From: Mesostigma viride
Lineage: Eukaryota; Streptophyta; Mesostigmatophyceae; Mesostigmatales; Mesostigmataceae
Assembly (NCBI GenBank): GCA_009746045.1
Contig: RPFO01000392.1
Location: forward strand, 1,722,464 to 1,786,463
Length of the DNA: 64,000 nucleotides
Direction of reading: 5' to 3'
Shown: positions 7,685 through 41,896 of the stretch, one piece after another
Layout of the letters: every line of letters begins with the position of its first letter
Numbering within the stretch: position 1 is the stretch's first letter
Notes under the pieces: generated by a model
What the model was told of the DNA's origin: nothing
Databases searched by the model: none
The model's input: the letters and a program-made list of their open reading frames with translations, nothing else
Made by a program: the position numbers and the translations under genes

Positions 7685-8212
7685 AGTTATTCTAGGGCTT
7701 CAGGCCTAGACTATCAGTACACGTGGCGTTGTCCCCGTCTCCCAAGTGGGATACGGACATGGACGGTGGTGTAGTACACTGGACATATCTCTACTAGGGT
7801 TTAGATCCGCACGTGCCATATTGGGCACGTGGGTGCTAGATATTAGCACTGAGATATGTAGGGCACACGCATGCACGTGGGTACTCACGTGGTAGGGTTA
7901 TGAGCTGTGAGGCAGACCACAAGGTGGGCTGCAGTGCTAGTCCTGTACGGAGGTCCTAGGGGAGGTCCAGGACCATCCACGTAGTGCTGCTAGGCAGTCG
8001 TTGCCTAGCTGTGGGCATCGTATCAGTCCTAGCTGGAGTAGATCTAGCTGGACGGAGCCAGCACCTCATTGGTTAGCACTAGTGCAGGATAGCTAGGTTA
8101 CCCTAACCTACGTGCCCATGCAATCCAGCTTGGCAAGCTTGCATGGATTGATATATGCCAGCCATTGCATAATCCAACACACGTTCGCTTTCATCGCACA
8201 AGTGCATTAACT
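7685..8212 (+). repeat. E1 5' LTR
   Basis: Begins AGTTATTC and ends ATTAACT. It matches 17700-18231 throughout except for a few indels (for example near 7868-7903, 8009-8012 and 8160). Only 48 nt separate its end from the first ATG (8261), and that leader begins TGCATTATTAAA, with no TGG start of a standard tRNA primer-binding site. Confidence 0.9.
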
Positions 8213-8260
8213 TGCATTATTAAAAACTCTCAGTTTTTATACTCCACTATCTTCCTACAA

Positions 8261-8360
8261 TGTCGAACGTTTCTGATCACGAGGGCTCTTCCTCGTCGAG
8301 CCTCTCGCCGTCGTCCGAGGAGTTGGACTACCGTGCTGCCGTGAGGGGCAGGCAGGCGAG
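8261..8360 (+). pseudogene. E1 ORF0, N-terminal piece
   Basis: First ATG after the E1 5' LTR. It encodes a Ser/Glu-rich start (MSNVSDHEGSSSS...EELDYRAAV) of about 33 codons before the hAT-1 insertion at 8361. The position directly after the LTR parallels the ORF0 of E2 (ATG 24 nt inside its LTR). The 9-bp repeat GCAGGCGAG that flanks hAT-1 is at 8352-8360 and 9672-9680, so the coding sequence continues at 9681. No function can be assigned. Confidence 0.55.
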
Positions 8361-9671
8361 CCGGGTGGGCAAATACGGGTACGGGGTATAATACGCGGAC
8401 CTAAAATACGCGTATTATACGTGGGGGGTGTAAAATACGCGGCGGTAAAATACGCGACAGTTTTTGTGGTCCAATTGTCAGTCACCCAATTAGCACGCTC
8501 CTTGATGATGGTCATGCAGTTATTGCAACTGAAATTTGGTGTATATGCTTATTTATTAACATCTTCCATCAATTTATGCCCTGCAATCCTATCTGATTAT
8601 GATTTGTTAAATGCTGGGGGGAGCAGACTGCAACGGGAACTGTAAGGAATCAATTAATTAGTTAATTGTAAGGAAAGCCATCCACTATATAATGCATGAG
8701 AGGACATAAGACACAACTTCCGAGAAGGAGGGGTGACGTGCCCTCCTTTGTACTGGATCATGCCGGCCACCATCTGCTTGAAAGAGGCGCTCTCAGCCGC
8801 ATTGAAGGCAATGCCGTTCTCGATGAAAAATTCGGCAGCCAGCAGCTGGACACCTTTCTTGTCGACGGGAACCAGCCATTTGGTGATGCTCAGCTGGCCT
8901 TTGCTGGGAACCGACGACAAGTCAGCCGGCGCAGCCCCTCCCATCTCCGCCATTGCCCTGTTCAACTTGTGCTGCTTCTTGGCGTCTGACTTCTGCAACT
9001 TGTTGTTAGCAATCCTGAGAAACCTGCTCCGGAGTCCGGATATTCGGTGGAATTTTGTCGCAGGGTAACATCCCTTCCCCTGCGATTCCGGCAAAGTGTG
9101 CACGGACTCGGAATACGCTGATTGCCCCCGCCCCGTATGAGAACTTCTTGTTGCAAAATGAGCAGAACGTATTCGACACAAACTGCGTTTTGTTACTAAC
9201 AGCATCTCTGACTGCTTCTTTCTTCTCGAGAACCAAATCCCATTCAGGCCCTTTCTTCTTCATGGCTGCAAATCGAAAATGGCTGCACACTGTCGCACAG
9301 TCGCACTGGCCTCGTCGTCGCTATATTGCATTACACCGTCAGTACTCAGTAGCACAGCTGGCATTTGCTGGCATTATGCGTTATGTACCTAGTCCTAGCT
9401 GTCTCCTACCGGCCAAAGATTTTGCAAGGCTTGCGCTTTATGGAAAGTTCTGTACGCATCTACTTCTAGTAGTAAAAATCTCAAATGTGCAGTGAACGCG
9501 CCGCGCCCAGAACCTGGGCACCGCGCCAGTGCCCGCTGCCCGCTGGTACCAACGAAAAATTCCAAGTCCAAACAGCGTATTCTGAAGTAAAGTACGCGTA
9601 TATACGGCGGAGGCCTTCAGTGTACGTTTTCCCGTATTTTTGCGGCTCCGTACGGCGTACTGACCAACCCG
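8361..9671 (-). mobile_element. hAT-1, non-autonomous hAT-type DNA transposon
   Basis: Inserted in ORF0 of E1. A 9-bp direct repeat GCAGGCGAG flanks it (8352-8360, 9672-9680); hAT elements usually make 8 bp, so one border base is uncertain. The ends are imperfect inverted repeats (left CGGGTGGGCAAATACGGGTA; right, reversed, CGGGTTGGTCAGTACGCCGT). Subterminal ATAATACGCG/CGCGTATTAT motifs cluster near the left end. The interior holds the N-terminal part of a hAT transposase on the minus strand and lacks the catalytic core and dimerisation domain. Confidence 0.75.
8654..9290 (-). pseudogene. hAT transposase N-terminal fragment (BED finger)
   Basis: Two minus-strand frames (9290-9006, then 9205-8654) together show the N-terminal organisation of a hAT transposase. 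First comes a BED-type finger (CSFCNKKFSYGAG ... RVRAHFAGIAGEG ... CDK.P). Then a linker (QLSITKWLVPVDKK), and then the helical segment FFIENGIAFNAAES..FKQMVAGM ... PPSRKL that precedes the RNase H-like core. The catalytic DDE region and the C-terminal hATC dimerisation region are absent, and one frameshift separates finger and helices. Binding of DNA ends is the finger's known role in the family; this copy cannot transpose by itself. Confidence 0.75.
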
Positions 9672-10776
9672 GCAGGCGAGAGGAGACCACGCTGGCAGCG
9701 ATGCCGGCAGTGGTCGCTCGTCCTCGGACGAGGATCCGAGGTACATTGCCCCACTGGCGACGAGACCGCCAGTATATGTACAATGTCTGGCGACCCAGTG
9801 CGCCACCGGCAGCAGGGCAGCCCACGGCACCAGAGATGGTAACTGGGCCGGGGAGGGTGGTGCAACTCTTAGGGGACATCCCGTCGGATGGTTATGACGA
9901 GGATGAAGACTTCGTTGATCTCGAGCTTCCCGCGGACAAGGCGAAGCGAGAGGAGAAGCTACGCCGGGAGGCCGAACGCCTTCGGGAGGAGGCTCAGCTG
10001 CGCCGGGAGCTGGAGCAGCAGCGCGAGCTGGAAGCACAGCGCGAGGCGCAGCTGCGTGCTGAGAACGAGATGGACAGGATCGCCCGGGAGCTCGCGGAAA
10101 GGCAACGGGAGCGGGATCGGGTGGTTCGGGCAGGCTTGCGAGCGGGGGCGGCAGGTGCGCGCGAGGCGCCTCCTTACGTGCTGCGCAAGAAAAGAGAGCT
10201 CTTTACCTTTGCTCGCCGGCGCACCGCTCGTCACTTTCGGCGGATGGCAGGCGATGTATTGCAGGAAACGGACTCCTCGGTCGAGATGCTGGATGGGGAG
10301 CGAGGTGAGGATCTGGTGTTGATGGACCCGGCCATGGTTGAGGCGGAGAGACTGGCCAAGATCGACTATGCTTGCCACTGCCAGCGCAAGGCAAAGAGGG
10401 CGATGGCCCGGTCCATGGCGGAGAATAGCCAGGCACGGGAGCGTGCGGGCCGCCAGGGAGGCACAGCACCAGGAGCTCAGACGCCTGCGGGCGAAGGCGC
10501 ACGAGGCATCAGAGAAGACCAGGCGTCATCAGGCGCGCTTGGACGCAGCCATGAAGCGGTCGGAGGCGGCGATGGCGGCGATGGTGGGCCCGGTCAGGAG
10601 GGAGCAGGAGGCCCGGCTGGCGCGGAAGAGCCGGAGGAATGCACGCGCCCTGGACAGGCGCATGCGCAAGGAGGAGCGGGCACTCCGCCGGTACCAGGAG
10701 GCGGCCCAGATCTGGGCGCTGCAGGGCGAGTTTGGCGATGCCATCCGCTTTGAGCGCGGTCTGGCGCAGTGGCGCC
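9672..10776 (+). pseudogene. E1 ORF0, coiled-coil middle part
   Basis: Continuation of ORF0 between the two hAT insertions. One frame (to about 10450) carries an acidic segment (DEDEDFVDLELPAD) and then a long Glu/Arg/Lys/Gln-rich heptad region (REEKLRREAERLREEA...). The frame then shifts to another (10338-10776) with a second helical Arg/Ala/Glu-rich stretch ending FERGLAQW at the hAT-2 border. The heptads predict an extended coiled coil. I do not recognise the protein. Position before gag and separate from it suggests an accessory protein of the element. A host gene captured by the element is the alternative. GC content is clearly higher than in the flanking gypsy sequence. Confidence 0.5.
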
Positions 10777-12101
10777 CAGTGATGCGCCATACGCCGTATT
10801 ATACGCCGTATTTAGCGTATTATGCGCGATACGCAAGCGGCGCGTACGAAAATGGGGTACTTTTATACGCAACGCGTATTTTTGCGCATTTTTGCGTATT
10901 TTCGCGTATTTTTGGCGTGTTTTTGGCTTACGTGGTGGGTTTTGGCATCATTTTACAGCCCGCGTTGCTTGCCTAGACTGCGGCGCGCCGACCTGTAGTA
11001 GGAACAAATAATTGTGTGATGAGCTAGCTAGTGTATAATGCACTAAAGCTAAAAGCGCGTTCATTGTGACTTGTGAAGGCGGGAATGTGAAGGCGGGAAG
11101 GCTGAAGATTCATCATCAAGAAGGTGATAAGGTGTGCCAGCAACGTCGTGGTCGTCTGGCACCTATATTGTAGCATATCGACATCCAGGCATGGCTGACA
11201 CGAATGAGTCGATGGAACACGATGATGATGTGCGGCCCGATGAAGAAGACGCCACATCCGAAACTGTCTGGACATACATTAGCAAAGAGCGCATCCTCAA
11301 GAATGGGCAGCAGACAAATAACTACTACATGGATGATGGAGTACTCCGTTACAGGCTGCTGGTCGAGCAGGCGGAGAAGGAAAGCAATACCAGGAAGAGG
11401 AAGGCGACTAGTGACGCCAAGAAGCAGGCTGATGTGCGGGCGGCACTTAAAGACAGGCTTGCAGACGTTGTAGAAACCGACGCCTCTAACTGGGTGTCCG
11501 CTCATGCCAGCAACACCTCGGGGCGCGCTGCTGGGGCGGCTGGGCCAAGCGGATCATCAAAGGGCCAATCCACCGACGGTAATTTGCCCGCACCTTATGG
11601 GCTCAGCAAAGAGCAGCTGGACGAGGAGCTGTGCGAGGCATTCATTTGCGCCTTTCAATGCCATCGACGCCCTTCAATGTCATCGACACCTCGGGGCAAT
11701 GTATAGTGCATTCATATCTTGAGTTCTACAAATTTATTATCCTTTCAAGTGAGTTGTGAATTGATACGTACTGGTATTGATACTGAGTTGCATGTTGTCT
11801 CGATTTTGAAGAGAAACTATCAAGTTAGACCGTTAGAAACTATGCTTGTATTTCTAGGTAGTGCATGATGACAATGCCAAGGTCATGCTATATATGTCAT
11901 GTATAGCCAAAAGGTATGGCAAAATTAACACCAGCAGACCATGCTTGGTTGCTCAGAATGTTGAAAACCCCTCAAAACCATGCCAAAAAAGGGGTTTTCA
12001 ACAGTTAGCGTACGATTAGCGTATAATACATTATACACCGCGTATTATACATTATACACCTGGGGCCGCGTACGACGCGTATCGCGTATGGCGCATCACT
12101 G
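10777..12101. mobile_element. hAT-2, DNA transposon with CAGTG...CACTG ends
   Basis: An 18-bp perfect terminal inverted repeat, CAGTGATGCGCCATACGC at 10777-10794, has its mirror copy ending at 12101. The flanks are an 8-bp target duplication with one mismatch (GTGGCGCC at 10769-10776; CTGGCGCC at 12102-12109). The CAGTG end plus 8-bp target is diagnostic of the hAT superfamily. Both subterminal regions are crowded with GCGTAT/ATACGC hexamers (about 10788-10920 and 12008-12095), likely transposase-binding arrays. There is one plus-strand ORF inside, but no recognisable DDE core, so the element is probably non-autonomous. Confidence 0.8.
11191..11706 (+). CDS. Unknown ORF inside hAT-2 (171 aa)
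   Basis: ATG at 11191 begins a 171-codon frame: an acidic N-terminus (MADTNESMEHDDD), a segment ETVWTYISKERILKNGQQ that could be the start of a degenerate BED-like region, a Lys/Arg-rich helix (NTRKRKATSDAKKQA), then a Gly/Ser-rich tail. No zinc-ligand cysteines or transposase catalytic motifs are visible. It may be the first part of a hAT transposase whose remainder is deleted, or a sequence captured by the transposon. Confidence 0.4.
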   Translation: MADTNESMEHDDDVRPDEEDATSETVWTYISKERILKNGQQTNNYYMDDGVLRYRLLVEQAEKESNTRKRKATSDAKKQADVRAALKDRLADVVETDASNWVSAHASNTSGRAAGAAGPSGSSKGQSTDGNLPAPYGLSKEQLDEELCEAFICAFQCHRRPSMSSTPRGNV

Positions 12102-12109
12102 CTGGCGCC

Positions 12110-12295
12110 CCACGAGCCGGTGCCAGAAGACGCGGTCCTGGAGTTCATGCGTACACCGCAGCCAGACCGAGCAAGGCGAGGAGCGGCATTGCTGCAAGCG
12201 CGCCAGCGAGTAATCGCTGGTGCAGACACCCCTTACCCACCACCCCCCACACCCACACCCACTTTGCAGACCGACACGGACCTCGAGCTGCAGCC
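12110..12295 (+). pseudogene. E1 ORF0 tail / gag leader
   Basis: After the hAT-2 target duplication a plus-strand frame (PEDAVLEFMRTPQPDRARRG, then Pro/Thr-rich) runs into the gag start region. It looks protein-like but is not in frame with the ORF0 piece that ends at 10776, so at least one indel lies between. It may belong to ORF0 or to an N-terminal extension of gag. Confidence 0.35.
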
Positions 12296-13811
12296 ATGGA
12301 CCGCATTGCCGCACTGCTACACCAGGAGCTGGATGCAGCGGGGGCCAACCCGGCCAAGCGGGTGCGGGCAGCAGAAGCAGTAGAGCAACTTCTGAGGGCC
12401 GCCAAGAGGGTTCGTCAAGGAAAGTGGCAGGCGGGGTGTGGACCATCGTCTTCACACCAGCGGTCGCATCCAGAGGAGGATGGCGACGAGGGGAAGGACG
12501 GGGGAGCACCAGGGGGAGGGGCACCCTCAAGCACCGGGGGTATGGCGGGCGGCACCAACGCTGGAGCGACAACCCAGCAGCAGCAGCAGCCACAGCAACA
12601 GCAGCAGCAGCAGCAGCAGCAGCGGCAGCACCAGCAACAGCAACCGCAGCAGCAGCAGCAGCAGCAGCAACCCCAACCACAAGCGACTGTCGCTGTACCA
12701 CAGCGACCCAGGTTTGATGCATCACTTAGGGAGGATAGGATTACCTTCCCAGGTCTAGCTGAGGGGTTTGTGCAGGAGGATGCACTTGAGTTCCTTTTCA
12801 AAATAGAACATTCCTGGTCCCATGACAACATCCGTGATTGGTTTCCTGCTTTTAGGGTGTCTAACACGGTACACCAATCTGCACCTAGCATAAAGCAAAT
12901 GGTACAGATGTATGAGAGGAAAGCCAGCACACCTGGGGCAGAGGAGGTGCAAGTCTTCACAGAATTTATAGCAGACCTGAAAGGATTGTTGACTAAGGGG
13001 GAACACCTGCAGGCTATCAAGGGGTTCAACTACGTTGGCCTAACCATGGTTGGCATCGTACAAAGTCAATAAGTCTGACTACGTACGTGACAACAAACAG
13101 TATGTCCTGTACATAGACAGGGACGAGGAGTTGAAGAAATTAAACTCCAAGTACCTAGTCCATCAGTGGCTCACCAAAGCTGAGCTGGACAAGAACACCA
13201 ATGCAGTCCTGCTGGCTGGCCTTAAAGACAAGTGGGATGACTTTAGGGGGGCCATGTTGTTTATTCAGCAGAGCTTAGAACCCTTTTCCACTGTCAAGGA
13301 AGCCAAGGTCAACAAGGTGCAAGGGGGGGGAAATCAGGACGGTGCAGGTCCTAGCAGGAAGAAGTTAATCAAGGAGGTGGTGGCTCAGGTCAAGGCAGTG
13401 TTCAAGGGTCCCCAGCACGGTAAAAAGGCAGGGGGGTCATCCAAGCAGCAGGGTAAGTCAGACAAGGGGGGGAAGGGGAACCCAGGCAGTAAGGCAGGGT
13501 CCTCCCAGGGGCCTAGCCAGAAAGGTAAGCCTCATGACTCCACTTTGTACTGCACCAGATGCTCATGCAAGGGGCATGAAAGGGATGATTGCTGGAAGGG
13601 CAAACCCGAGCATGGATCTGATGTTGATGTGTGCCCAGGTTGCTGGGAGCCCCGCCACCCGTTACCTGCATGCAGGGGGACGCTGCAACAAGCCCAGGAA
13701 GGGAGCCACACGGGGCGCCCCTCAAGCAAGCCAGCACTCAGGACGACTGTAAGTCTCCTGTACCCTGGTTTCTCAATGGCCGTGTACCTTCAATTGCTCT
13801 GTGTTGCCTGA
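12296..13811 (+). pseudogene. E1 gag with poly-Gln tract and two zinc knuckles
   Basis: Starts at ATG 12296 (MDRIAALLHQELDAAGAN). Two overlapping frames (12296-13072, 13050-13811) need one shift near 13045. Content in order: an N-terminal helical segment; a Gly/Ser-rich stretch; a glutamine tract encoded by CAG/CAA repeats (about 12575-12680); a predicted helical capsid region (RITFPGLAEGFVQEDALEF ... KDKWDDFRGAMLF); a Lys/Gly-rich basic linker; and two CX2CX4HX4C zinc knuckles, CTRCSCKGHERDDC and CPGCWEPRHPLPAC. Gag packages element RNA in cytoplasmic virus-like particles, with knuckles binding RNA. A second shift near 13800 leads into the integrase frame. The poly-Gln expansion is not present in the E2 gag, which has Asn runs instead. 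Confidence 0.8.
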
Positions 13812-15114
13812 CAGTGAGGAAGTGGACTGGGACCTGGCTTATGACATGACGTTAGCACAGGTGGCCCAAGATCCCACTATAGCCTCCTTAGACGCAGCAG
13901 CAGATAAGGTTATATCCTATGCCAGGTTAGCCCAACAGCTACACAAGGCAATGGGGCATGAGGCAGTGGCAGAAAGGCTGGCCAACAAAATTGATGGCCG
14001 TGACCTGGAACAGATGTGCAGGCATGTCAGGAAGCACTGTGAAGCGTGCCAACTGCATGCACCTAAACCCAAGAGATGGCATGTGGCCACCCCACCACTG
14101 GCTAGAGGAAAGCTAGTAGGGGATGTGATACACGTGGTGAAGGACACGGTGTATTACTTGGTCCTAAAAGATGCCTGGTCTAGGTTTGTGGTGATAGAAC
14201 CCTTGCCAGGCATGGCCAATGAACAACTGCACAGAGCCCTGCTGATTGCACTAGCACGGTATCATCCTCAGGAAAAATTAATGCTGGATCAGCAGTTCAC
14301 GTGGATACAAGATTATCCTGATCTGCCCAAGATAGACATTGCTGGGGCTCAAGATCATGAACGCCAGGGGATGATTGAACGTACCATGCGTGCTATCAGG
14401 GACCTCATAAAGAAAAATGAGTCCAGGACAGCAGAGTCTGGGAGCTATGCTGATAGGACAGCGTGGGCAGCTGAGGTGTGCAGAACTCTGAACACCAAAC
14501 CCCTCATGTCTTCTCCTTTTGGTGAAATCACATCAATTGGCCTGCAATCAGGTAGCTACTCTCAGGAGGTACTAGACCACTACAACACGCAAAGGCAACA
14601 CTTGGCCAAGTTGCTGGCAAAAAAGGATAAAAGTAATGCCAGGCCTGTGTTTGAAGTGGGGGATCAGGTACTCTACTATAGGGAGGGGGAAGGGAACAAA
14701 GCCCACTCTGGTAGATGGCATGGTCCAGCTGAAATCATCAGGTTGTCAGAAACAGGTGACACGGTGACTATTCAGCATCACAGAGAGCGAATGGTTGGCA
14801 AGCATAGACTGAAGCTTTATTACCCTCCTTTGGCAGACGTGTCAGGGGTAGAATTCTTGGACATGGATTCAGAGCCTCAGTCTGGTGGGTTGGTCTCACC
14901 CAGTGAACTGGCCAGGGACATAGCTGATGCAAGCAACACAACCATAGACGCTCCTGTGTTCCTCAGTGGTGCAGCCCCACCACAGCCCAATGGTCCACTG
15001 GGCAGGAGGAACGTGCACTGGATGAGCAGCAGGTCGCTCCTCCCTCATCTCAGGAACAGCCACACGAAGCAGCAGATCCTGTTGTCCCCAGGAATAAATT
15101 TGCTGAGGCTCTAA
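13801..15114 (+). pseudogene. E1 integrase (HHCC, DD29E, SH3-like tail)
   Basis: The 437-codon frame directly follows gag, ahead of the protease. It has an HHCC zinc module (H48, H53, C80, C83 in frame numbering), then an RNase H-like core with D108 (GDVIHVV), D163 (LMLDQQF) and E193 (GMIERTMRAI). There are 29 residues between D163 and E193, against 35 in the copia element C1 of this window. After the core, FEVGDQVLYY ... RWHGPAEIIRL ... VGKHRLKLYYP resembles the SH3-like/GPY-F tail seen in gypsy integrases. Integrase joins the cDNA ends to target DNA. The frame runs off into unrelated codons after about 15040; the genuine frame continues toward the protease. Known copia polyproteins have protease before integrase. 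Confidence 0.85.
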
Positions 15115-15515
15115 AAGCTCTACATAGAGCACACACTGCCAAGGCACAAATGGCAGCAGGTGCAGCACAAGTCAATGCTGTGGGTGAATCTAACCAGGAT
15201 CCCAGTATTCTGGCAGTAGACACACAGGCACAGGTGAGCATCATCAGTGCACAAGCTGTATCTGGCCTAAGTCTGCAACGCTCGCCCTGGGCTAGAGTGT
15301 CAGATTTTTCAGGCAAAACAAAAATGGCAGTCAAAGGCCAAGTGCTAATTCCCATTCTGGGTGTGCCCACTCCCTTCCAGGTAGTAGAGGGCTACAAGGG
15401 GAATGCACTGCTGGGGGAACCATTTGTCTCATACCCTGGAGTAGTCATCTCAGCTGGGAGGTTGAGCGTGACTGGGTGGGGCAGGTCACCCTGGACCATT
15501 TCAAAATTCCTTTAA
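15110..15515 (+). pseudogene. E1 retropepsin-like domain, DTQA active site
   Basis: This frame reads through LAVDTQAQVSIIS, G-rich beta strands (VSDFSGKTKMAVKGQVLIPILG) and a LLGEPF motif. That is the layout of a retroviral-type aspartic protease: DTG loop, flap, then (I/L)LG. The catalytic Asp (about 15219) and Thr are present, but the Gly of DTG is replaced by Gln. The domain lies between integrase and reverse transcriptase, whereas the standard copia position is before integrase. The sister element E2 has DTNS at the same place, so the change is unlikely to be simple decay. Maturation of the gag-pol polyprotein would be its role if active. Confidence 0.75.
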
Positions 15516-15660
15516 CACAGATCAGTGATGGCTGGAAGCAGCCATCAATGCTGTCAACATAAAATACCTCCCAGGTCAGGAACCCTGTGTTGATTCCCTC
15601 ATTCATTCTCAGAAGCTACACCCCTCTGCGTTTGGGCTTGGTAGATGGGACATTGCGTCC

Positions 15661-17202
15661 ATGTCTCCCTTGTCCTATGATGATGTGGTCAAAGACTGTC
15701 AAACGCAGATTGGTTTTCTGAAATGGATGGAAGCCTTTAACAGGGCTAGAGAGGAATGGGTTTGTCCTGATCCACGTAGTAAGTCCCAGGTACCACCTGT
15801 AACACCGATTGAGGCACTGCCACAAGGGGCCAGAAAGCTCAGACTGAAGTTTGTCTGCAAGCATAAACCCCAGGCAGATGGGACACCTCCCATTTTTCAT
15901 GCCAGACCTTGTGTCACGGAGTTCAGGGGCTCCACTGAGCTAACAGAGGCTGAACTGTATACCCCTGGTATTCAGCAGACGTCTCTTAAGGTCCTGTTGG
16001 CCACTTTCCTTCACCATCTGAATGCTGGCAAGGACTACGTGTGTAAAGCCACTGACATTAAACGAGCCTTCCTTAAAGGCAACCCTGACATAGCCCAAAA
16101 GGTGTGGAGGGGTCAAGTCTATGTGGTAAACACTCCCAAAGTCTGGTCTGGGGACATCAAGGAACCTCACCTAAGGCCTAACTTGGGGGTAGAAGGGCTT
16201 CAGTCAGCACCTAAAATTTTTAGGCTGTCTGCCCAAGAGGTCTTCCTGAAGCTGGGGGCCCAGTATGATGATATTGACCCTTGTTTCTTCACCATCCCTC
16301 ATCCTGCTGGTATGATGATGTTTGTGTGGCATGGGGATGATCAGCTCATTACTGGTCCCAGGGCAGCCGTGGAGGATTTTATTGCTCAAGTGTCTGCTAG
16401 CTTTGAATTAGGCAAGCAGCTGGAGCTGGGGAAAGATCCTGTCAAGTTCTGTGGCATCATTCTGAACCTGTTTAAGGAGCAGAAGGAGTGGGTGTGTTCT
16501 CTCAAAGCATCCCCTGAATACGTCACGTCTTGCAAAGATGTTCTCCCCTCTGACATCACTCCTGCTCTCTGTCCCACTATTAGGGGTAAGCTAGGTTAGC
16601 TGTGTGCCACGTGTGCTCCTCATCTGGCAGTGGTCAGCAGAGTGGATGATGATGTCCTAATGGAGGTGGGGTCTAGGGCTATTAAACAGGTGTTGCATGA
16701 TGGCCCTCCCCTTATTCTTCATGCCTTGGATCTGTTCCAACCCATCCACATCACATGCATGATGGACAGCTCCATGGAGTCACGGGTAGTCACTAGGGTA
16801 CAAGCTAGAGAGGCAGGTCTCTTTATGTTGTCTAACCCCACTGGCAAGCAGTCTTTGGTTTCCTGGTTCAGCAGACTCCACAAACGCAAGGCAGTCAGCA
16901 GCAATGTAGCAGAATGCCGTGCTGTGGTCTCATCTGTGTTGCATGCCAGGTATTTGAACCATCTGCTGGTGTGGTTGCAGCATCAGGCTGGTAGTTATGC
17001 TGGTGTCAAATCCCATCTGCTGACTGACAGTCAATCCCTTCTCTCTTTCCTGGACAACCCCTTGGCTGTGCACACTGATTTGGACTGGATTGTCCTCAAG
17101 CAGGAGTGTACCTATCTGGAGTCCAAGACTCACATCAGAGACCCTGACAATGCAGCTGATGCACTCACAAAAGTGCCACAGGCCAAACTTTTTCCTAGCT
17201 AA
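15661..17202 (+). pseudogene. E1 reverse transcriptase and RNase H (HGDD)
   Basis: One frame is interrupted by an in-frame TAG at 16597-16599. The reverse transcriptase shows TDIKRAFLKGNPDIAQ (copia motif A, D132 of the frame) and FVWHGDDQLITGP in place of the usual YVDD box, with both Asp retained. RNase H follows with the four acidic residues in MMDSSMES, VAECRA, LLTDSQS and NAADALTK, all copia-like (SWFSRLHKRKAVSS corresponds to SW.SKKQ..VALSS). The N-terminal part of the reverse transcriptase lies in another frame upstream (about 15540-15660). The enzyme would copy element RNA into cDNA inside particles. The nonsense codon, plus the shifts upstream, makes this copy inactive. Confidence 0.88.
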
Positions 17203-17699
17203 CCCCATTTTCCTAGCTAACCCCATTTTAGGTCCCTTGGGGTCACGTCGCGAAGCGGTTGGCTGCAGGGCCTCAGTATAGAGTCCTATACACGCTGATG
17301 AACCCGTATAACGGCAGAGGGTGAAGTGCCTCAGCCTAGGGTTGTTAGCACCAGATAGGAGGGTGGTCATGGGGTGGCAGGGACTGAAGTGTCCAACCCG
17401 TAAGACTCTCTTTGCGTCATTAAAGATTGAGGTCAGAAGGGTCCTCCTTTATTGATGGCTTGTTCTTTGTCAATAAAATGTGTGGTTCTATTTTTCTGAC
17501 ATGGTTTTCCCAAATACAGGCATCCAACCAGTGTGGATGTTATATCCAACACGGAGGAGCTATGGGCGCTTTTAATAATGCATCTCTTTCAGTGTCCTGG
17601 TTGTCCCTGTGGGGAACCTTGTTTATAAGTCGTGGTTGGCATATGAGTGGGTTGTGGGAAGAGTCTTCCCCTCACTCCCCAAAGAAAAGTAATAATGGG
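17203..17699 (+). other. E1 3' non-coding region
   Basis: No coding sequence after the RNase H stop. It begins with a tandem duplication of TTCCTAGCTAACCCCATTTT (about 17190-17229) that also supplies the stop codon. A purine-rich stretch, AAAGAAAAGTAATAATGGG, directly precedes the 3' LTR and is the best polypurine-tract candidate. Confidence 0.6.
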
Positions 17700-18231
17700 A
17701 GTTATTCTAGGGCTTCAGGCCTAGACTATCAGTACACGTGGCGTTGTCCCCGTCTCCCAAGTGGGATACGGACATGGACGGTGGTGTAGTACACTGGACA
17801 TATCTCTACTAGGGTTTAGATCCGCACGTGCCATATTGGGCACGTGGGTGCTAGATATTAGCACTGAGATATGTAGGGCACACGCACGTGGGTACTCACG
17901 CACGTGGTAGGGTTAATTATGAGCTGTGAGGCAGACCACAAGGTGGGCTGCAGTGCTAGTCCTGTACGGAGGTCCTAGGGGAGGTCCAGGACCATCCACG
18001 TAGTGCTGCTAGGCAGTCGTTGCCTGTGGGCATCGTATCAGTCCTAGCTGGAGTAGATCTAGCTGGACGGAGCCAGCACCTCATTGGTTAGCACTAGTGC
18101 AGGATAGCTAGGTTACCCTAACCTACGTGCCCATGCAATCCAGCTTGGCAAGCTTGCATGGATTGATATATGCCAGCTAGCCATTGCATAATCCAACACA
18201 CGTTCGCTTTCATCGCACAAGTGCATTAACT
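17700..18231 (+). repeat. E1 3' LTR
   Basis: AGTTATTCTAGGG ... GCATTAACT, followed directly by the target duplication AGCAG (18232-18236). It differs from the 5' LTR by several short indels, for example an extra CTAG block near 18176-18179. Confidence 0.9.
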
Positions 18232-18236
18232 AGCAG

Positions 18237-24132: not shown

Positions 24133-24137
24133 GTATT

Positions 24138-24569: not shown

Positions 24570-24586
24570 TGGCATCGGAGTGCGGT
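24570..24586 (+). promoter_or_regulatory. C1 primer-binding site
   Basis: TGGCATCGGAGTGCGG follows the 5' LTR without a gap. The TGG start pairs with the CCA end of a tRNA; which tRNA cannot be told without the host tRNA set. Confidence 0.7.
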
Positions 24587-24814
24587 TCGCACGCCTTTCG
24601 ACCTGCTTACCGCTGGTAAAAGTCGTTTCCGGAGGCTCTGCTCGCGGTTGACTTTACATTTGTGTATTTCGGCAAGATTTGCATGACGACAGCGTAGGCG
24701 GAGGTTTGATTCCCGTCTGGCGCGTAATACAAAAGGTGCTTGGTTCGATTCCTGGACGGAATCTCTTGGTCAACGTTACCTTTTTTTCAGAGTTTTCTGC
24801 TGTTTTTTGCTGGA

Positions 24815-25819: not shown

Positions 25820-25883
<64 letters not shown>

Positions 25884-28261: not shown

Positions 28262-28878
28262 AGTTGTGAGGGTAAGAATGCCACGAATTCCGCCATGGTT
28301 CTTGCAGGAAGTTGCCTTTATTAACAATCAGGAAACACAGACGTAAGTCACGTCACTTCCAAGACTGCACGCAGCACAGACGACAGGGTCGCAGTGCCAA
28401 GAGAACGTGCACGCAAGAACTAGCGTCCCGGTGTGACCAAGTCACTCATATAGCTTACTAGGGACGCGTCCAAGTATTCAGCTGCACTGTCACAGCTGAA
28501 CTGTCAATCAATTGATTACACAGACTCTGGCACGCCTTTGGAGCGCAGATCTATCAATTGTCCATACGGCTAGTCCTGTGGACCTATCCGTACACTAGTC
28601 AGCATCAATTGTCTCATAGGTCCTGGCGCGCTACAGTGCGCCTACCTATCAATTGACCATCAAGTCCTGTACAAGTCCTGTCAACGTCCTGCGGACTATC
28701 AAAGTGACACTTGTACATCCTGTGTCCGTACGCGCCCACAGTGGCGCGCCGGGTACTGTCGGCACAGCCTAGGAAACGTCATAACTTTTACGTTCCTTAA
28801 CCAAATGAGGCGTTCAAGGTGCCGTTGGAAAGAGCGTAACAATCTCTATCCATCTAACGTAAATCCTTTACGTTAACT
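28262..28878 (-). repeat. E2 3' LTR
   Basis: Low-coordinate LTR; 3' in the sense of the element. Starts AGTTGTGAGGGTAAG and ends TTTACGTTAACT. It contains repeated ATCAATTG/CAATTGA blocks and a GTCCTGT motif repeated several times (about 28510-28690). The GCTCC target duplication precedes it. Confidence 0.95.
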
Positions 28879-29826
28879 CCAATCCCTTCTTTTCTTTAGG
28901 GTCACATCCCCTGCCAGGGACCCTTGAAGTAGCTTGAAATGTCCTTCACTCCAGCTTGAAGCTTGAACAGATGTCTTTAATGGCCAATGCCATTCCCCCA
29001 GCCCTTTCTTTTAAGGAACTGGAAAAGAAACAGATCTGCCACAGGGAAAACCATTTCATGAGAAATGGAGAAAACCTATGGAAGTGGCATTACAGAGTAC
29101 CACCAGATATTAGAAGCACACAAAATTAAATACATACAGGTTAATTCTATGAGGTCTTCTCCAGGAATTAATCCCATCACCTCGGTAGAGCCTCCAGTAC
29201 AATGACCTTCTGGCGGTGAGTTACATTAATCCCAGATACTAATCCCATAAAACCCAGTACATATTCAATATAAGTACAATAAATCCATGACAATTAAAAT
29301 ACCACTTGACAAAGTAAGGCGTATTACAATAGTTTGCCTGTCATTCTCTCAACAGGGGTCTATTGGCGCCCGTCTTACGGCGCCCGTCTACTTGCCAGAT
29401 GGTAAACTGCCACAGCAAACAAATGACAAAATGAAACACATAGGCAACAATTAAATCCTGCCCTGGGGAACTAGGGAAGTCTGAACAGGCAAACACCTGA
29501 ACAGGCCAGCTTGTAGAAACATAATACCAGGGAATCGAACCCCGCCCTATAAACCCCAGAATAAAGGTTCCCAGACCATTGTGAGAAGTATGTACAAATA
29601 TACATTTCTTTTAAAATAGAATACATGGTCTGTAATGGACCTGTCAACCTTGTGTAGTCAACAGCATGAACCCCAGCCAAAACCTGGCTGTATCCTGATT
29701 AAAATCAGAGTGAGTGTACCATGGTCCATGAGCCTTAGTACAGACTAAAATACAGGTATTATGCCAGTCACAATGCTGACACTACCACACAATCTGCTCT
29801 CCAATGCCCTATAACCATGCACCAGC
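28879..29826 (-). other. E2 3' non-coding region
   Basis: About 0.95 kb between the end of pol and the 3' LTR, with no recognisable coding sequence. It holds a B-box-like motif on the minus strand (GGTTCGATTCC at about 29529-29539) that is not part of a complete tRNA. The polypurine tract would lie next to 28879: on the minus strand the sequence there is AAAGAAAAGAAGGGATTGG, clearly purine-rich. Confidence 0.65.
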
Positions 29827-32800
29827 TTAGACAGCTTGCTGAGATGGGTCCATCAGAGACTGAAGAACCTTGTATTGCACTGCTGCCTTCTGCACTAGCT
29901 TGGTCAAAGCATCAGCAGGATTGTCAACCCCAGGGATATGCTCAATATTGGCCAAGGAGGACAACTCCTTAAGAAGGAGATAATCCAAGTCCCTACTTCT
30001 GGCCATCTGCCTGTGCACAAACTGCACCATCCCCATGGAGTCTGTTTTTAGAAGAGTGGTAACCTGAAGTGGCCAAGGAGTGTTAGAAGTCATCTGATGA
30101 AGCAACTCCTTCAGATAAAGGCTTGTGTGAATGCCTTCACAAATAGCCCTGCATTCTGCCACATCACTGCTGACAGCCACCCGTTTGTGCAGGCGACTAA
30201 ACCAGCTCACCAAACTCCCCAGGCCTTCCTGTCTGAGCACAAAGAGCCCTGCAGCCCTGCCCCTGACCTTGGAGACCTGCCTGCTGTCCATTGAGCTATC
30301 CACATACAGCTCCATGCAAATGGGTTGTGATAAATCCACTGCAGACAACAGAATGCCAGATGAAGCCCTGACCTGATCAGCCACCTTGGCAGACCCTAGC
30401 TCCACCAGCATGTCATCAGGCAACCTGGCTATGACCATAAGGTCTGGCCTGGAAATGCCTGCCACCCAAGCAACCATGCCCCTCACCATGGGACACAGTG
30501 CCTGTGTGATGGTTGGAGGAAGCTTGCTAATGAGGGTCTCTTGATAGTCATTGCCCCCCACCAGCAGCATACGCCACTCCCCTCCCTTCTTCACCAGTGT
30601 GGCCTCCATGCCCACAAACAGCAGAGGCTCATTCTCCACCTGCCATTGCTCCCTACCCAGAGGAAACTTGGACTTAATGATGGAGATCAGCTCCTTAAGC
30701 CACGACGTGGGAGCTATCAGATGTAGGTCATCCCCGTGCAGCGAAGCATACACTGGCAGGCCTTCCCATTGCCCCAGAAACAGACAGGGGTCTACAGGAG
30801 AGACCTTCAAGTTGCAATGCTCCTTCAGGAAACGGTTGAGAGTCTCCCTCCAGATTATTGGACTTGACCTCAGGCCCTCCAGGCCCTTGAGGATTTTAAG
30901 GAACTCCGTGTGGATGTCCCTTTTCCATACAGCAGGCACCCTAACATAGAAAGGCGTCTTGCCCTCCCACTTTTCCTGTGCCACATCTGCATCACCCTCC
31001 AGAAATGCCCTCTTGAAGTCTATCACCACTGAGCCATAGTCCAAGCCCTTGTTGAGAAGGCCTAGAAAGACACACAGCAGCAGCCTCCAAGTATCATGCA
31101 GCATGCCAGGGGTATACAACTCCTCAGCAGTGCACTCACCAGTACCCTTGAACTCATTCAGCACTGGCCTGACATGTGGTACCTTGACCCCGTCCACCTC
31201 CTTCATCTTGATGACAAACTTGAGCTTGAGTAGACGTCGTGCAGGAGGCAGGTCATTGACAGGTTCCACGCATTTCTTGGAGATCCAGTCCTCCCCAGAT
31301 TTAATCAGACCCAGTGTGACCTGGGGACACATAATGGGAGAGGACATGAGCTTCACCAGGCCTTGGTAGTTGATAGGGCTGTGTCCAGCAAGTGAGTGAG
31401 GACCAATGCCCAAACTGCTTGGATGACTAGCAGCTGGCAGTATGAGGTCATCAACCAAGGGCTCCTGCCCCTGGCACACTTGCACACGCTTAACCGTCCT
31501 GGTTACTGCACGTGATAGGTGAGTGGTCCTGAAATTAATCAGTGGGACCTGACCAGCCCCTTCCTTAGTCAGGAGAGAGGACGTGATCACTACCCCATCC
31601 TGGCATAGGAAATTCTGCCCCAGAAGAGCAGGTCCTTGATAGCCCTCCAAGACACAAAAAGCAGTGTCCTGTCCAAGGATAGGAATGAATACCTCACCCA
31701 GTACCTTCACGTGTACCCCGCCACTGAAGTCAGACACAAACTGATAGCTGGGTTCAGACATGCTGTACCCTGCTGCAGCCCTGGTCCCAATAATGGAGAC
31801 CTGAGAATTAGTGTCTACCTCTAAGGCAGTGTCCAGCCCCAGATTGCCATGCCACCTGAGCTTGGCTACCTTGGGCTGCTTCTTGGCCCTTTGTAGAGCC
31901 CCAATCAATCCAGCCAAACTTGTCCCCCTGGGCTTGGTTAGTGCCTTGGGCTTGACAGTTGACTCCCCAGCTGTTGACCTTGCAGCCTGTTCAACAAGTA
32001 CCTCTGCAACCTGGCCAGGGCTGACAGATTCCCCTGCAACAGATGTGGTCGTTGCGTCAGTGATGTCACCTGGGACCTGAAAATCCTGCAGATCCTGTGA
32101 GCCTTGTGCCTGACTGCCCTCATTCATCAGGTTAGGCTTGACATATGACCAACTCAGCCGGTGTACATGCTTTGGTTCGTCCTCCATGCTGACCAAGCAT
32201 GCGTGGCTAGCTTCATCAACCTGGGTAACCACCCCAGGACTCCAGCTACCACGTTTGCCATAAAGGCTAGGTTCCTTCCAAGCTAGGACCTTCTGACCCA
32301 CTTGTGGCTCCAGCATCTTCCAACCCCGGTCCTTCTCCCTCAGCTTGGCAAAGGTGACATGTGCAGCATGTTTCCAGCCCTCCAGCACATGTGGTGGGCA
32401 CAGGCCATGATATAGACCCATTGGGCTGACAGCAACTCCATCATAGTAGAAGTTAACCCTGCTGTTCAGCTGCTGCTCCACGTTCCTCAGCCATGCACTC
32501 CTGACAAGTGCAGGTGCAGACAAGGGTACCCAGTCTTCAGAGATGATCAATTTCTTGACCTCCTGGATTGCCCTCTCGATAGCACCCTGCTGCCCATGAG
32601 CCTCCCTAGGTGTAACCAGCAACTCAGGAAGGGTAGGATCACCCTTGAGATGCTGAAACTGCATGTCCACCTGGATCCTTGTGGTAGGAAACTTGGCTCT
32701 TACATTCTGCAGGGCAGCCAGCAAGTACCTGTTCTTCATAGAAGGTAAATGCTCCAGCACCTTGTATTTCGTGTACCTGTCCACGCACACCAACAGTTGC

Positions 32801-33453
32801 ATGCCCCTGATGTGTTGGATATCACACTGCAGATCACCAATGCTCTGAGGTAGAGCTTTGGCATGTGATTTCCTGGGCTTGTTGGAGGACAACTGGCACT
32901 TACACCGTGAGGCAGCTTGCTGACACGCCTTAAGAAGGGGTGCCCTGCCCATACGGAAGGCAAAGTTGTTTGACAGAGAAGTGGCATGCCCAAACATGTT
33001 GTGGATTCGGGCACCCAACTCCTGGTACACAGAGGAAGCAGTCCCTGGCACAGTCAGGACTGTGCTGTCAGGTTGTCCAGCATCACCATGCTGACTTCCA
33101 TCCTGTTCTGACTCAGAGCCTGAGTCACCCTGCTCATGCCCAACACCTGGACCGCCAGCAGGGACCACATGCATACCACCAGAGGCCTTCACACCCCTCT
33201 GTGGTTGTACATTGGTTTCTCTCAAAATGAGAGGTCCACCCTCGTGCCCAGCACGAGGATGCATAGGGTCAGACATACTTACAGCTGCATCAGCTGTCAA
33301 GGACGTCTTCATAGGAACCTGTACCTCTCCAGGTGACCTGGGGCCACACTGAACCTGGAGATCACCCTCTTGTTGCCCAGATATAAAATCTGCATTGGAG
33401 CACCTGGCCTCCCCCTTGGGTGAATTAAGGTGTGTAGGGGTTGCCTCAGACAG
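29827..33453 (-). CDS. E2 pol: integrase-protease-RT-RNase H polyprotein
   Basis: Open from the UGA at 33454-33456 to the stop at 29827; first Met at 33312 (numbering from it, 1161 aa). Order: acidic/Gly-rich start; HxxxxH (H104, H109) with a Cys pair (RCKC, 137-139); integrase core D160, D216 (IQVDMQF), E246 (GAIERAIQEV), 29 residues between the last two; SH3-like tail (VGQKVLAW...GSWSPGVV, 338-395); retropepsin-like domain with D500 in EVDTNSQVSIIG and ALLGQNF (562-568); copia-like reverse transcriptase with D765 (VIDFKRAFLEGD) and LHGDDLHLI (H859-D862); RNase H D1005, E1053, D1091, D1134. All catalytic acids are kept, so the protein may be functional. Integrase-before-protease and the HGDD, DTNS and DD29E variants are shared with E1. 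Expression probably needs readthrough of the UGA, or initiation at 33312. Confidence 0.93.
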   Translation of the reverse strand: MSEATPTHLNSPKGEARCSNADFISGQQEGDLQVQCGPRSPGEVQVPMKTSLTADAAVSMSDPMHPRAGHEGGPLILRETNVQPQRGVKASGGMHVVPAGGPGVGHEQGDSGSESEQDGSQHGDAGQPDSTVLTVPGTASSVYQELGARIHNMFGHATSLSNNFAFRMGRAPLLKACQQAASRCKCQLSSNKPRKSHAKALPQSIGDLQCDIQHIRGMQLLVCVDRYTKYKVLEHLPSMKNRYLLAALQNVRAKFPTTRIQVDMQFQHLKGDPTLPELLVTPREAHGQQGAIERAIQEVKKLIISEDWVPLSAPALVRSAWLRNVEQQLNSRVNFYYDGVAVSPMGLYHGLCPPHVLEGWKHAAHVTFAKLREKDRGWKMLEPQVGQKVLAWKEPSLYGKRGSWSPGVVTQVDEASHACLVSMEDEPKHVHRLSWSYVKPNLMNEGSQAQGSQDLQDFQVPGDITDATTTSVAGESVSPGQVAEVLVEQAARSTAGESTVKPKALTKPRGTSLAGLIGALQRAKKQPKVAKLRWHGNLGLDTALEVDTNSQVSIIGTRAAAGYSMSEPSYQFVSDFSGGVHVKVLGEVFIPILGQDTAFCVLEGYQGPALLGQNFLCQDGVVITSSLLTKEGAGQVPLINFRTTHLSRAVTRTVKRVQVCQGQEPLVDDLILPAASHPSSLGIGPHSLAGHSPINYQGLVKLMSSPIMCPQVTLGLIKSGEDWISKKCVEPVNDLPPARRLLKLKFVIKMKEVDGVKVPHVRPVLNEFKGTGECTAEELYTPGMLHDTWRLLLCVFLGLLNKGLDYGSVVIDFKRAFLEGDADVAQEKWEGKTPFYVRVPAVWKRDIHTEFLKILKGLEGLRSSPIIWRETLNRFLKEHCNLKVSPVDPCLFLGQWEGLPVYASLHGDDLHLIAPTSWLKELISIIKSKFPLGREQWQVENEPLLFVGMEATLVKKGGEWRMLLVGGNDYQETLISKLPPTITQALCPMVRGMVAWVAGISRPDLMVIARLPDDMLVELGSAKVADQVRASSGILLSAVDLSQPICMELYVDSSMDSRQVSKVRGRAAGLFVLRQEGLGSLVSWFSRLHKRVAVSSDVAECRAICEGIHTSLYLKELLHQMTSNTPWPLQVTTLLKTDSMGMVQFVHRQMARSRDLDYLLLKELSSLANIEHIPGVDNPADALTKLVQKAAVQYKVLQSLMDPSQQAV

Positions 33454-33456
33454 TCA
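33454..33456 (-). promoter_or_regulatory. Candidate readthrough stop (UGA-C) between gag and pol
   Basis: The zinc-knuckle frame of gag ends ...AAG GAG CAG TGA CTG TCT... and the pol frame continues in the same register with no other stop to 29827. UGA followed by C is the leakiest stop context known in eukaryotes. That an intact gag-pol is divided by exactly one stop suggests programmed readthrough; a recent nonsense mutation is the alternative. Confidence 0.55.
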
Positions 33457-34565
33457 CTGCTCCTTGTTGTCTTCTTGCTGACTGCCCTTTGAAGGCTGGC
33501 CTGCCTGGGACTTGTTGTTGTTCTTCTTGTTGTTGTTGTTATTCTTGTTGCTGCCCTGGCCCTGGGACTTCTTGAAGCTGGGACACTCCTTCTTGATGTG
33601 CCCCCACCCCTTGCACAGGTAGCATTGTATCTTGGACTTGCCCTGGCCACTGCCCCCATTGTCAGACGCGTTGCCCTGCTTGGGCTGACCACCCACCCGC
33701 CTGAACACCGACTTGGAGTGTGACCTCCTGTCAGAATCAGGTGAATGATCTCCCTTGCGCTTGTGATGGTTGCCCCTACGCCCTCCTTGGCTTCGGTCAG
33801 CCTCAGACGTCTTGGAGCCACCCTGGGTACGCCCGCCTGCCTGGGTAGCCTTCACTGCTGGCACTCCACCCTCAAACAGCTCCTCTGCCTCGAGTGCTTG
33901 TTTATGATGACCTTGTAGGCCTTCAGGGTAGAGTGTGGGGCACACATGACTTTTAAGGAGCCACGTGTCGCCTTATCCAGCCCAGAAACCTTGAGCCAGT
34001 TGGTTAGGGCTATGTTATCAGCGACATTAAAGCCGTGAGCCCTGCCCTCCTCAACCATCTTACAATAGTTGAGAAAGTTCTGGATCAGGTCCCCCTTGAC
34101 CTCCCACCCTTGGTACTTGTCCTGCCAATGGATGCCACTTCTTCTCTGGTCCTCCAGCAGCTCCTTCAGCTCAGCCACGTACAGTGCCCAGGCCTTATTG
34201 GCCTTTTTGCACTCCCTGGTTAGGTCCTTAATCTGGTCAGTACACTTGCCAAAAGTGCTACTGCCTATCCAGATTTGATAGTAATTTGTACCACCGTACA
34301 AGCTAGGGAACCCTTCCAATCCCTCCACAAACTCTTCAGCCTGCTTAGGCTTGGAGTCTGAGGTTACAGGCTGCAACTGATTGACAATTAAAAGACCCTG
34401 TGTGGTAAGATCAAAGCCATGAATAGCTTGTGCATTATTATTATTGTGAGGAAGGTTGGTAATCTCTCCGGTAAGCCCCACGTCATCTACGTGAGCGGTT
34501 CCACTACCAGCACCCCCATTATTATTCCCACTGGCTGGACCCTTGCTACGGCGTCCCTCAGCCAT
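33454..34565 (-). CDS. E2 gag with Asn-rich tail and CCHC knuckle
   Basis: Begins at ATG 34565 (MAEGRRSKGPASGNNNGG). The first frame runs to 33852. The second (33945-33454) carries KIQCYLCKGWGHIKKECPSF, one CX2CX4HX4C knuckle, then an Asn/Lys run. The two are offset by a -1 shift in the overlap 33855-33945; no convincing slippery heptamer is visible, so this is more likely a single-base indel than programmed shifting. The N-terminal half has the helical, Trp-containing look of a capsid (YYQIWIGSSTFGK, NLTRECKKANKAWALYV, LIQNFLNYCKMVEEGRAHGF). Gag would form the particle and bind RNA. Distance to ORF0 is about 170 nt. Confidence 0.85.
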
Positions 34566-34735
34566 CCTGCACTACCAGCTATTCAAAGAACACCTTAACA
34601 AAGCAGCAGAAAATATGTACAAAATTTTTGTGTCGCCTCTGCCGCCTGCGCCGGTGTCGCTGCCGCCCCCGCGAATTGCCGCCGAAATTCGACAAAAAAA
34701 ATGTCGACAAGTACTGCAGAAGAAAATTAGGCCGA

Positions 34736-35443
34736 CTAGTAGTCAAGGCCCCTGAAGTCGCAGTACGTGTATACGAACTCACGATCCTCCATATCCAGCT
34801 CCGGACCTGCACCGGTATGAATTAAAACCGGCGTGCTCCCCGCCGCGTAAGTTGCGACGCGCCGACGCGCGACGAGGCGCAGAGGATGTGTAAAGATCGT
34901 CAATAATTCCCACCCCGCGGGAATCCACTCTCGCACAGAGGCGAGAAATGCCACCAGGTTAATTAAAACCTGGCGCTCGCGACTGCGTACGCCGCGAGTG
35001 AGCAGCGATAACAGCGCGAGATCCTGAAACAAATTTGTCGACACCGCCGGCGCGCCCCCCGTGCGAAGCGATGCCCAGTTTTGCAGGTTTCTCTGGTAAC
35101 CGGTGAGTGAAGAGAGGACGTTGTCCAACTCCTCAATGGCAGTCGTGACTTCGGTCACCGACCGCAAACCTCCCCGCACCTGGACCGTAAATGTCGATAA
35201 AATGTTTCGAATCTGGTCCAACATGCGGATTGCCGGCACCAGTGCTGGCAAATCGGGGTCCTCGGGGTTATCCCCGAGCAATGCGTGAGCTGCACGCTGC
35301 TGACGATGAAGCTCGTCGAGCGAAACTGTAACTTCGTCGAGCAATTGTTGCCACGACGGCACAGTTGGTCTTGACGAAGAACCAGCCGGCGGAGCGGCTA
35401 TTTCCTCATCGTCCGGAATCCGAAATTCTTCCGAATTTGGCAT
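34736..35443 (-). CDS. E2 ORF0, unknown 235-aa protein before gag
   Basis: First ATG after the 5' LTR is at 35443, only 24 nt inside the LTR border, and opens a 235-codon frame to a TAG at 34736. The sequence starts acidic (MPNSEEFRIPDDEEIAAPP), then has long amphipathic helices (SWQQLLDEVTVSLDELHRQQ, VTTAIEELDNVLSSLTGYQ), a Leu/Arg-rich block (LALLSLLTRGVRSRERQVLI) and an aromatic/acidic tail (DREFVYTYCDF). No zinc knuckle, protease or envelope-type features, and no signal peptide or membrane anchor. It overlaps no other gene of the element. E1 also has a long ORF before gag, but its sequence is different (coiled coil). I cannot assign a function; a particle, nuclear-import or silencing-suppressor accessory role is speculation. 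Confidence 0.8.
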   Translation of the reverse strand: MPNSEEFRIPDDEEIAAPPAGSSSRPTVPSWQQLLDEVTVSLDELHRQQRAAHALLGDNPEDPDLPALVPAIRMLDQIRNILSTFTVQVRGGLRSVTEVTTAIEELDNVLSSLTGYQRNLQNWASLRTGGAPAVSTNLFQDLALLSLLTRGVRSRERQVLINLVAFLASVREWIPAGWELLTIFTHPLRLVARRRVATYAAGSTPVLIHTGAGPELDMEDREFVYTYCDFRGLDY

Positions 35444-35467
35444 CTTTTTGACAGAGCGTGTAATACG

Positions 35468-36084
35468 AGTTGTGAGGGTAAGAATGCCACGAATTCCGCC
35501 ATGGTTCTTGCAGGAAGTTGCCTTTATTAACAATCAGGAAACACAGACGTAAGTCACGTCACTTCCAAGACTGCACGCAGCACAGACGACAGGGTCGCAG
35601 TGCCAAGAGAACGTGCACGCAAGAACTAGCGTCCCGGTGTGACCAAGTCACTCATATAGCTTACTAGGGACGCGTCCAAGTATTCAGCTGCACTGTCACA
35701 GCTGAACTGTCAATCAATTGATTACACAGACTCTGGCACGCCTTTGGCGCGCAGATCTATCAATTGTCCATACGGCTAGTCCTGTGGACCTATCCGTACA
35801 CTAGTCAGCATCAATTGTCTCATAGGTCCTGGCGCGCTACAGTGCGCCTACCTATCAATTGACCATCAAGTCCTGTACAAGTCCTGTCAACGTCCTGCGG
35901 ACTATCAAAGTGACACTTGTACATCCTGTGTCCGTACGCGCCCACAGTGGCGCGCCGGGTACTGTCGGCACAGCCTAGGAAACGTCATAACTTTTACGTT
36001 CCTTAACCAAATGAGGCGTTCAAGGTGCCGTTGGAAAGAGCGTAACAATCTCTATCCATCTAACGTAAATCCTTTACGTTAACT
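35468..36084 (-). repeat. E2 5' LTR
   Basis: 5' in the sense of the element; on the minus strand it starts AGTTAACGTAAAGG and ends CCTCACAACT. The internal sequence after it begins CGTATTACACGCTCTG, with no TGG-type primer-binding site. The GCTCC target duplication follows at 36085-36089. Confidence 0.95.
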
Positions 36085-41817: not shown

Positions 41818-41896
41818 TGGCGACCATAGGCCCTATAACGATTGTTGATATTTTGTTGGGCTTAGATTGGCATCAAGGCCATAAAATCACTATTAA

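Follow-up and report, generated by a model that had tools for sequence, protein, structure and literature searches.

We have discovered in the streptophyte alga Mesostigma viride a lineage of long terminal repeat (LTR) retroelements in which the integrase (IN) precedes the protease (PR), followed by reverse transcriptase (RT) and RNase H (RH). The pol order IN-PR-RT-RH occurs in E1 and E2, two LTR elements of this lineage that lie in a 64,000-nt stretch of contig RPFO01000392.1 (assembly GCA_009746045.1, positions 1,722,464 to 1,786,463 of the forward strand), hereafter the window. We put the probability of the joint claim, namely the order, a multi-family lineage in M. viride and its mobility, at roughly 0.88; this figure leaves out the activity of the protease and the route by which the order originated, both of which are less sure.

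The four E2 domains were used as separate queries on the window, and E1 was matched by all four with the order kept: IN at 13870-14685 (E 8e-24), PR at 15210-15491 (E 1e-23), RT at 15574-16566 (E 1e-53) and RH at 16567-17181 (E 4e-44). In a shuffle control with 30 shuffled queries each, the maximum was 25.8 bits for IN and 24.6 bits for PR, as against 94 and 87 bits for the true queries. A first-pass annotation of the window had proposed that integrase comes before protease, RT and RNase H in both elements, and the piece-by-piece agreement of E1 with E2 bears this out. Two related pol proteins, P0001 and P0002, align with E2 over the whole IN-to-RH span in identical order, and a 700-aa IN-PR stretch was read directly, just ahead of the RT, in one copy of the family of a third protein, P0009. 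The Ty1/copia order PR-IN-RT-RH was found in none of E2, E1, P0001 and P0002. As a positive control, a Pfam scan of a Ty1/copia element in the window, into which E2 is inserted, recovered the textbook order, with Pol_BBD, gag_pre-integrs, rve and SH3_retrovirus before the insertion and RVT_2 (150 bits) after it. The same annotation had named a second protease before the integrase as grounds for abandoning its proposal; Pfam and motif scans of gag, ORF0 and pol revealed none, and the sole DTG or DSG in the three full pols is a DSG at E2 residue 110, without a partner motif.

The M. viride genome (439.9 Mb, 2243 contigs) was searched for copies; only the best candidates were scored, and all copy counts are lower bounds. 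The lineage comprises several abundant families, and at least one other source holds relatives. All 38 scored places for E2 (of 10,086 candidates) were 100% identical over 1208 aa and without stops, and five further groups of pol copies were found besides E1 and E2. The first-pass annotation had spoken of two diverged copies, one with an open pol; both are present, but the description was too modest, since at least 38 pols, that of E2 among them, are identical. The 45 matches to P0002, a Mesostigma protein of 1157 aa (eukprot jgi/Mesvir1), include at least ten full-length places at 100% identity, one more at 100% over residues 1-1150 and another group at 74-84%. Of the 126 matches to P0009, at least 85 are exact (314 of 315 aa, 100%) and 12 have 87% identity. 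The source of P0001 is a 6.2 kb ENA contig, and because its best copies (38 of 38 scored places, of 10,011 candidates, with open frames of 1196 codons) are only 63-64% identical, P0001 itself does not seem to come from the searched assembly. P0008, in a JGI record, is a 98% relative of E2, and P0006 comes from source lgn. A search of the protein collection with words from the first 500 residues of E2 pol gave no match; IMG/VR and prokaryote contigs held no match to the lineage, and NCBIfam yielded one chance-level row only.

P0009-P0011 are labelled Prorocentrum lima and Alexandrium andersonii. Spread of the lineage into dinoflagellates was considered and rejected, because P0009 is exact at 85 genome places and E2 is matched by P0010 at 100% over 219 aa, so that Mesostigma contamination of those data sets is the simpler reading; P0011 (EukProt) was judged to be of Mesostigma origin solely from its similarity to P0007 and P0009. 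These EukProt entries are presumably from transcriptomes, and if they are, such pols would be transcribed, whatever the path of contamination.

The elements of this lineage have moved recently. Twenty of the 38 E2 places were fetched, making 21 sequences with the window copy, and the pol protein is identical to E2 in all. Both LTRs are whole in 14 of the 21, the pairs being 99.35-100% alike (six of them at 100%), and matching 5-bp duplications, which differ between copies, flank 12 of these 14. The duplications are absent in the other two (L021 and L022), in which the 3' flank resembles element-internal sequence and which are possibly tandem or recombined copies. In the P0002 family the LTRs are 501 bp long and have AGTT...AACT ends, and the two copies checked carry the duplications ACCAA and TCCTG; such ends and 5-bp duplications are common to the three families examined (E2, P0002 and E1). 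LTR ends of the TG...CA kind were not found, the AGTT...AACT boundaries being fixed by the 5-bp duplications. A purine-rich tract ending in TGG stands directly ahead of the 3' LTR in E2 and the P0002 family, and the primer-binding site, CGTATTACACGC in E2 and CGTACTCAAAAG in the P0002 family, does not start with TGG. One of the 20 fetched E2 copies differs in its pol DNA, at three third positions, and the other 19 agree, whereas gag, ORF0 and the LTRs vary; as the copies were chosen by pol, selection accounts for at least some of this contrast.

The passage from gag to pol differs between the two families. Of the 20 E2 copies with anchors, 11 have an uninterrupted gag frame that ends at the same stop (373 codons in ten, 367 in one), and the 24 bases around gag UGA-CUG are identical in all 20 copies with both anchors. 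This one stop, seen in young copies, is a weak hint of readthrough in the E2 family. The P0002 family has gag and pol in different frames with a 40-base overlap, and its gag ATG lies only 24 bases past the 5' LTR, too close for an ORF0 to fit between them. ORF0 had been put forward as a trait of the lineage, and that part of the annotation does not hold for all families; in E2, ORF0 is present and reaches its full-length end in 11 of the 21 sequences.

Several points weigh against the order as we read it. The Pfam matches give it, as rve, gag-asp_proteas and RVT_2, only weakly (9e-5, 0.011 and 7e-9, respectively, in E1), gag-asp_proteas being named in E1 and P0001 only, and the scores are mostly under the curated cut-offs. 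The structure model of the protease has moderate confidence, no Foldseek match falls under E 0.001, and the alignments behind both structure models (PR and IN) have four rows. The active-site triad is D-T-N or D-T-Q, without glycine, in all six sequences covering it (E2, E1, P0001, P0002, P0005 and one P0009-family copy). The E2 copies were picked by pol identity, so that the sameness of pol overstates the uniformity of the family, and all of the evidence comes from sequence and models. Such an order might also come from rearrangement or mis-assembly of a single family, or from a chimera of gene prediction, and an excerpt of a plant survey describes elements of unexpected order as discarded for being likely mispredictions (PMC6317226). 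We regard this as extremely improbable here, given one uninterrupted frame across several diverged families and dozens of loci, and 12 E2 copies with different matching 5-bp duplications. Chance and the rearrangement of a single copy are ruled out by the E1/E2 shuffle control and by the many copies across families, and the earlier view that the shared order marks a lineage stands.

The domain near D500 of E2 pol, taken for a retropepsin from the letters alone, is predicted to have the retropepsin fold with moderate confidence, by structure model and fold match. The glycine of the active-site triad is near-invariant in retropepsins. The triad D-T/S-G was not found in the lineage, and protease activity is not assured because the glycine is missing. 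The D and T of the triad, an E-G-Y-x-G loop and an (L/I)LG(Q/E) end are kept in six of six lineage proteases, and Q-V-S follows the triad in five, P0005 having A-R-T-S. The lineage PR profile scored 0.6% against copia PR and 0.7% against gypsy PR with hhalign, the copia-gypsy PR control itself reaching only 0.16%, and a PDB sequence search gave three weak rows, two of which are tethered retroviral proteases (E 3.8 and 5.7). With the triad glycine replaced in all six members, the domain might be a dead relic or have a structural role, another protease or no processing taking its place and the IN-PR order being functionally minor. We hold this to be unlikely, since D, T, loop and end motifs that stay conserved among members mostly 32-51% identical to each other, whose families are rich in young copies, argue for kept function, and the scans of gag, ORF0 and pol offered no other protease.

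Retroviral-type integrase features, namely the HHCC finger and D,D,E core that had been recognised earlier and an SH3-type tail, were found by motifs, model and fold match; the fold-match rows (model 80-324) span the core and the tail but leave out the finger, and the tail is modelled as a five-strand barrel. The usual spacing in retroviral-type integrases is D-x35-E. This spacing was not found in the lineage, where it is D-x29-E in E2, E1, P0001 and P0002, with 31 residues in one P0009-family copy. PDB sequence searches with IN and with RT-RH gave no match. The lineage IN profile scored 39% (E 3e-4, 196 columns) against copia IN, 1.9% against a gypsy sample consisting of a single 129-aa fragment without tail, and 0.1% against the window's single copia IN, which weakly suggests that the lineage IN is nearer to copia than to gypsy.

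A single origin of the order is most likely, the protease of a copia-type element having been moved or replaced in an ancestor common to all families seen. A recombinant, in which copia-type RT-RH was joined to an IN, and perhaps a PR, of gypsy or retroviral descent, is a tentative and rather less probable origin. It would suit the modelled retroviral-type IN fold with its SH3-type tail, the W-(H/N)-G-P-A motifs in the IN of E1 and P0002, which we take to resemble the GPY/F module, and the match of gag-asp_proteas to the PR of E1, P0001 and the window's gypsy element, together with the lack of any Pol_BBD (PF22936) match in lineage proteins against one in the window copia element. The IN profile comparison speaks weakly for copia instead, and the window copia IN likewise has an SH3 tail (PF25597); the gypsy-like nature of the integrase tail, as first annotated, is thus not established.

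By profile, RT and RNase H are classed as copia-type, as had been supposed. With hhalign, the lineage RT scored 99.15% (E 4e-19) against copia RT and 0.2% against two gypsy RT pieces of the window, and the RNase H scored 98.9% (E 2e-17) against copia RNase H. RVT_2 was matched at 36 bits by E1, above the cut-off of 31.6, and below it at 27 bits by E2 and 15-22 bits by P0001, P0002, P0005, P0007 and P0009; P0011, which covers part of the RT, was unmatched. Neither gypsy-type RT (RVT_1) nor the order PR-RT-RH-IN was found in lineage proteins. A maximum-likelihood tree of 13 rows set 8 lineage rows apart from 5 copia rows with support 100/100, over a branch of 2.29 plus 0.57 changes per column. 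The tree is far too small to place the lineage inside or beside copia, and its program warned of one very long, one short and one oddly composed copia row; the E1 row was joined from two pieces. We give even odds to a separate LTR retroelement lineage of superfamily rank in early streptophyte algae, either sister to Ty1/copia or deep inside it, with its own IN-PR-RT-RH order, AGTT...AACT ends, a working D-T-(N/Q) retropepsin and a DDE integrase of short spacing, and barely seen by standard profile libraries (RVT_2 15-36 bits). The usual RT catalytic motif is Y-x-D-D; the window copia RT (36064-37176) has H-V-D-D, and lineage RTs have H-x-D-D.

Domain order, copia-type RT and RNase H, LTRs, purine-rich tract, 5-bp duplications and many young copies are established at the level of the DNA, and copying would proceed as in other LTR retrotransposons. 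RNA driven by the LTR would be translated into Gag, and into Gag-Pol past the in-frame UGA in the E2 family or via the overlapping frame in the P0002 family. The retropepsin between IN and RT would dimerise and cut free its N-side neighbour, IN, and its C-side neighbour, RT-RH. The cDNA would then be made by RT-RH, and IN, with its retroviral-type HHCC, DDE and SH3 parts, would insert the AGTT...AACT ends with a 5-bp stagger.

In the excerpt of the plant survey, the copia order is GAG-PROT-INT-RT-RH (PMC6317226), with PR before IN, whereas IN is before PR in the Mesostigma lineage. The two share RT and RNase H profiles, LTRs, a CCHC gag and 5-bp duplications, and they differ in RVT_2 scores (15-36 bits in the seven lineage proteins matching it, 150 for the window copia), in the lineage having no Pol_BBD, gag_pre-integrs or SH3_retrovirus match, and in LTR ends of AG..CT, not TG..CA. 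Goodwin and Poulter reportedly described in 2002 Gmr1-type Ty3/gypsy elements with a copia-like order, PR-IN-RT-RH. These are a precedent for an altered pol order within a superfamily, but they are gypsy elements said to have PR first, whereas the Mesostigma lineage has IN first and a copia-type RT. Zam elements are gypsy-type elements of animals. Their LTR ends are given in an excerpt as AGTTAYRK...TAAYT instead of TG..CA (PMC3601003), non-TG ends like those of the Mesostigma lineage, from which they differ in order and RT. Two recently proposed groups, Troyka, an extra LTR lineage of gypsy/BEL order (PMC12440569), and the Kuafuorterviruses, with protease, RT, RNase H and integrase (PMC11673190), differ by having protease first and integrase last, according to the excerpts available.

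The first-pass annotation would also have yielded to an earlier description of the order for a named clade. In the excerpts available from the open-licence PMC literature, a scope that leaves Repbase, subscription papers and preprints outside, there was no description of IN-PR-RT-RH and none of Mesostigma retrotransposons; such elements might sit in Repbase or subscription journals as unclassified copia. As far as we looked, the order, shared by diverged families, is new. Domain order serves as a defining character of LTR retroelement superfamilies, and this lineage shows it to be freer than thought; at least one large survey, in its excerpt, dropped elements of unexpected order (PMC6317226). 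The lineage is also a natural test of protease position in polyprotein processing, and it provides a retropepsin that lacks the glycine of the triad. The lineage may explain some of the LTR sequence in the Mesostigma genome, whose LTR content an excerpt puts at 27.9%, the base of the percentage not being clear (PMC6947507).

Table 1. Positions of E1, E2 and their parts in the window
Feature	Position	Strand	Basis or remark
E1, older broken LTR element, same lineage as E2	7685..18231	+	LTR pair 96%, AGTT...AACT ends
E1 target duplication AGCAG	7680-7684 and 18232-18236		flanks of E1
E1 integrase	13870..14870	+	Pfam, motifs, E2 match
E1 protease (D-T-Q-A-Q-V-S)	15210..15512	+	different frame from IN and RT
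E1 reverse transcriptase	15574..16566	+	Pfam, E2 match
E1 RNase H	16567..17181	+	E2 match
E2, complete LTR element	28262..36084	-	nested in Ty1/copia element 24138-38330; LTR pair, ends, duplication
E2 5' LTR, 617 bp	35468..36084	-	LTR pair 99.8%
E2 3' LTR, 617 bp	28262..28878	-	purine-rich tract AAAGAAGGGATTGG ahead of it in sense direction
E2 target duplication GCTCC (+ strand)	28257-28261 and 36085-36089		flanks of AGTT...AACT ends
E2 ORF0, 235 aa from first Met	34736..35443	-	open frame; no convincing Pfam match
E2 gag	33454..34571	-	split over two frames here: 33852-34571 and 33454-33972
Single UGA stop between gag and pol (CAG UGA CUG), same frame	33454..33456	-	kept in copies
E2 pol, 1208 codons, open	29827..33453	-	one frame
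E2 integrase: HHCC finger, D,D-x29-E core, SH3-type tail (predicted)	32119..33021	-	motifs, Pfam, model
E2 retropepsin-like protease (D-T-N-S-Q-V-S ... A-L-L-G-Q)	31534..31845	-	motifs, model, fold match
E2 reverse transcriptase, copia type	30499..31356	-	Pfam, hhalign, E1 match
E2 RNase H, copia type	29839..30498	-	hhalign, E1 match

The window copy of E2 is probably not self-sufficient despite its open pol, because its gag frame is shifted; the CCHC zinc knuckle lies in the second gag frame. E1 is broken, because its PR, alone in another frame than IN and RT, is out of frame and a stop cuts RT-RH. Ahead of the E1 gag, about 3.8 kb (8216-12020) hold several long open stretches, three of which were tested and gave no convincing Pfam match.

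Other repeats adjoin these elements. The Ty1/copia element split by E2 is young, its 432-bp LTRs being 100% identical. A further element (38473-46376) has identical 563-bp LTRs, between which lie disrupted frames of gypsy type (CCHC gag, DSG protease, rve); it is related to an inverted stretch at 50180-52020, and its end is 90% identical (inverted) to an LTR-like stretch at 6690-7645 that adjoins E1. A direct repeat of about 650 bp, 99% identical, occurs at 59433-61164 in two copies about 1.08 kb apart.

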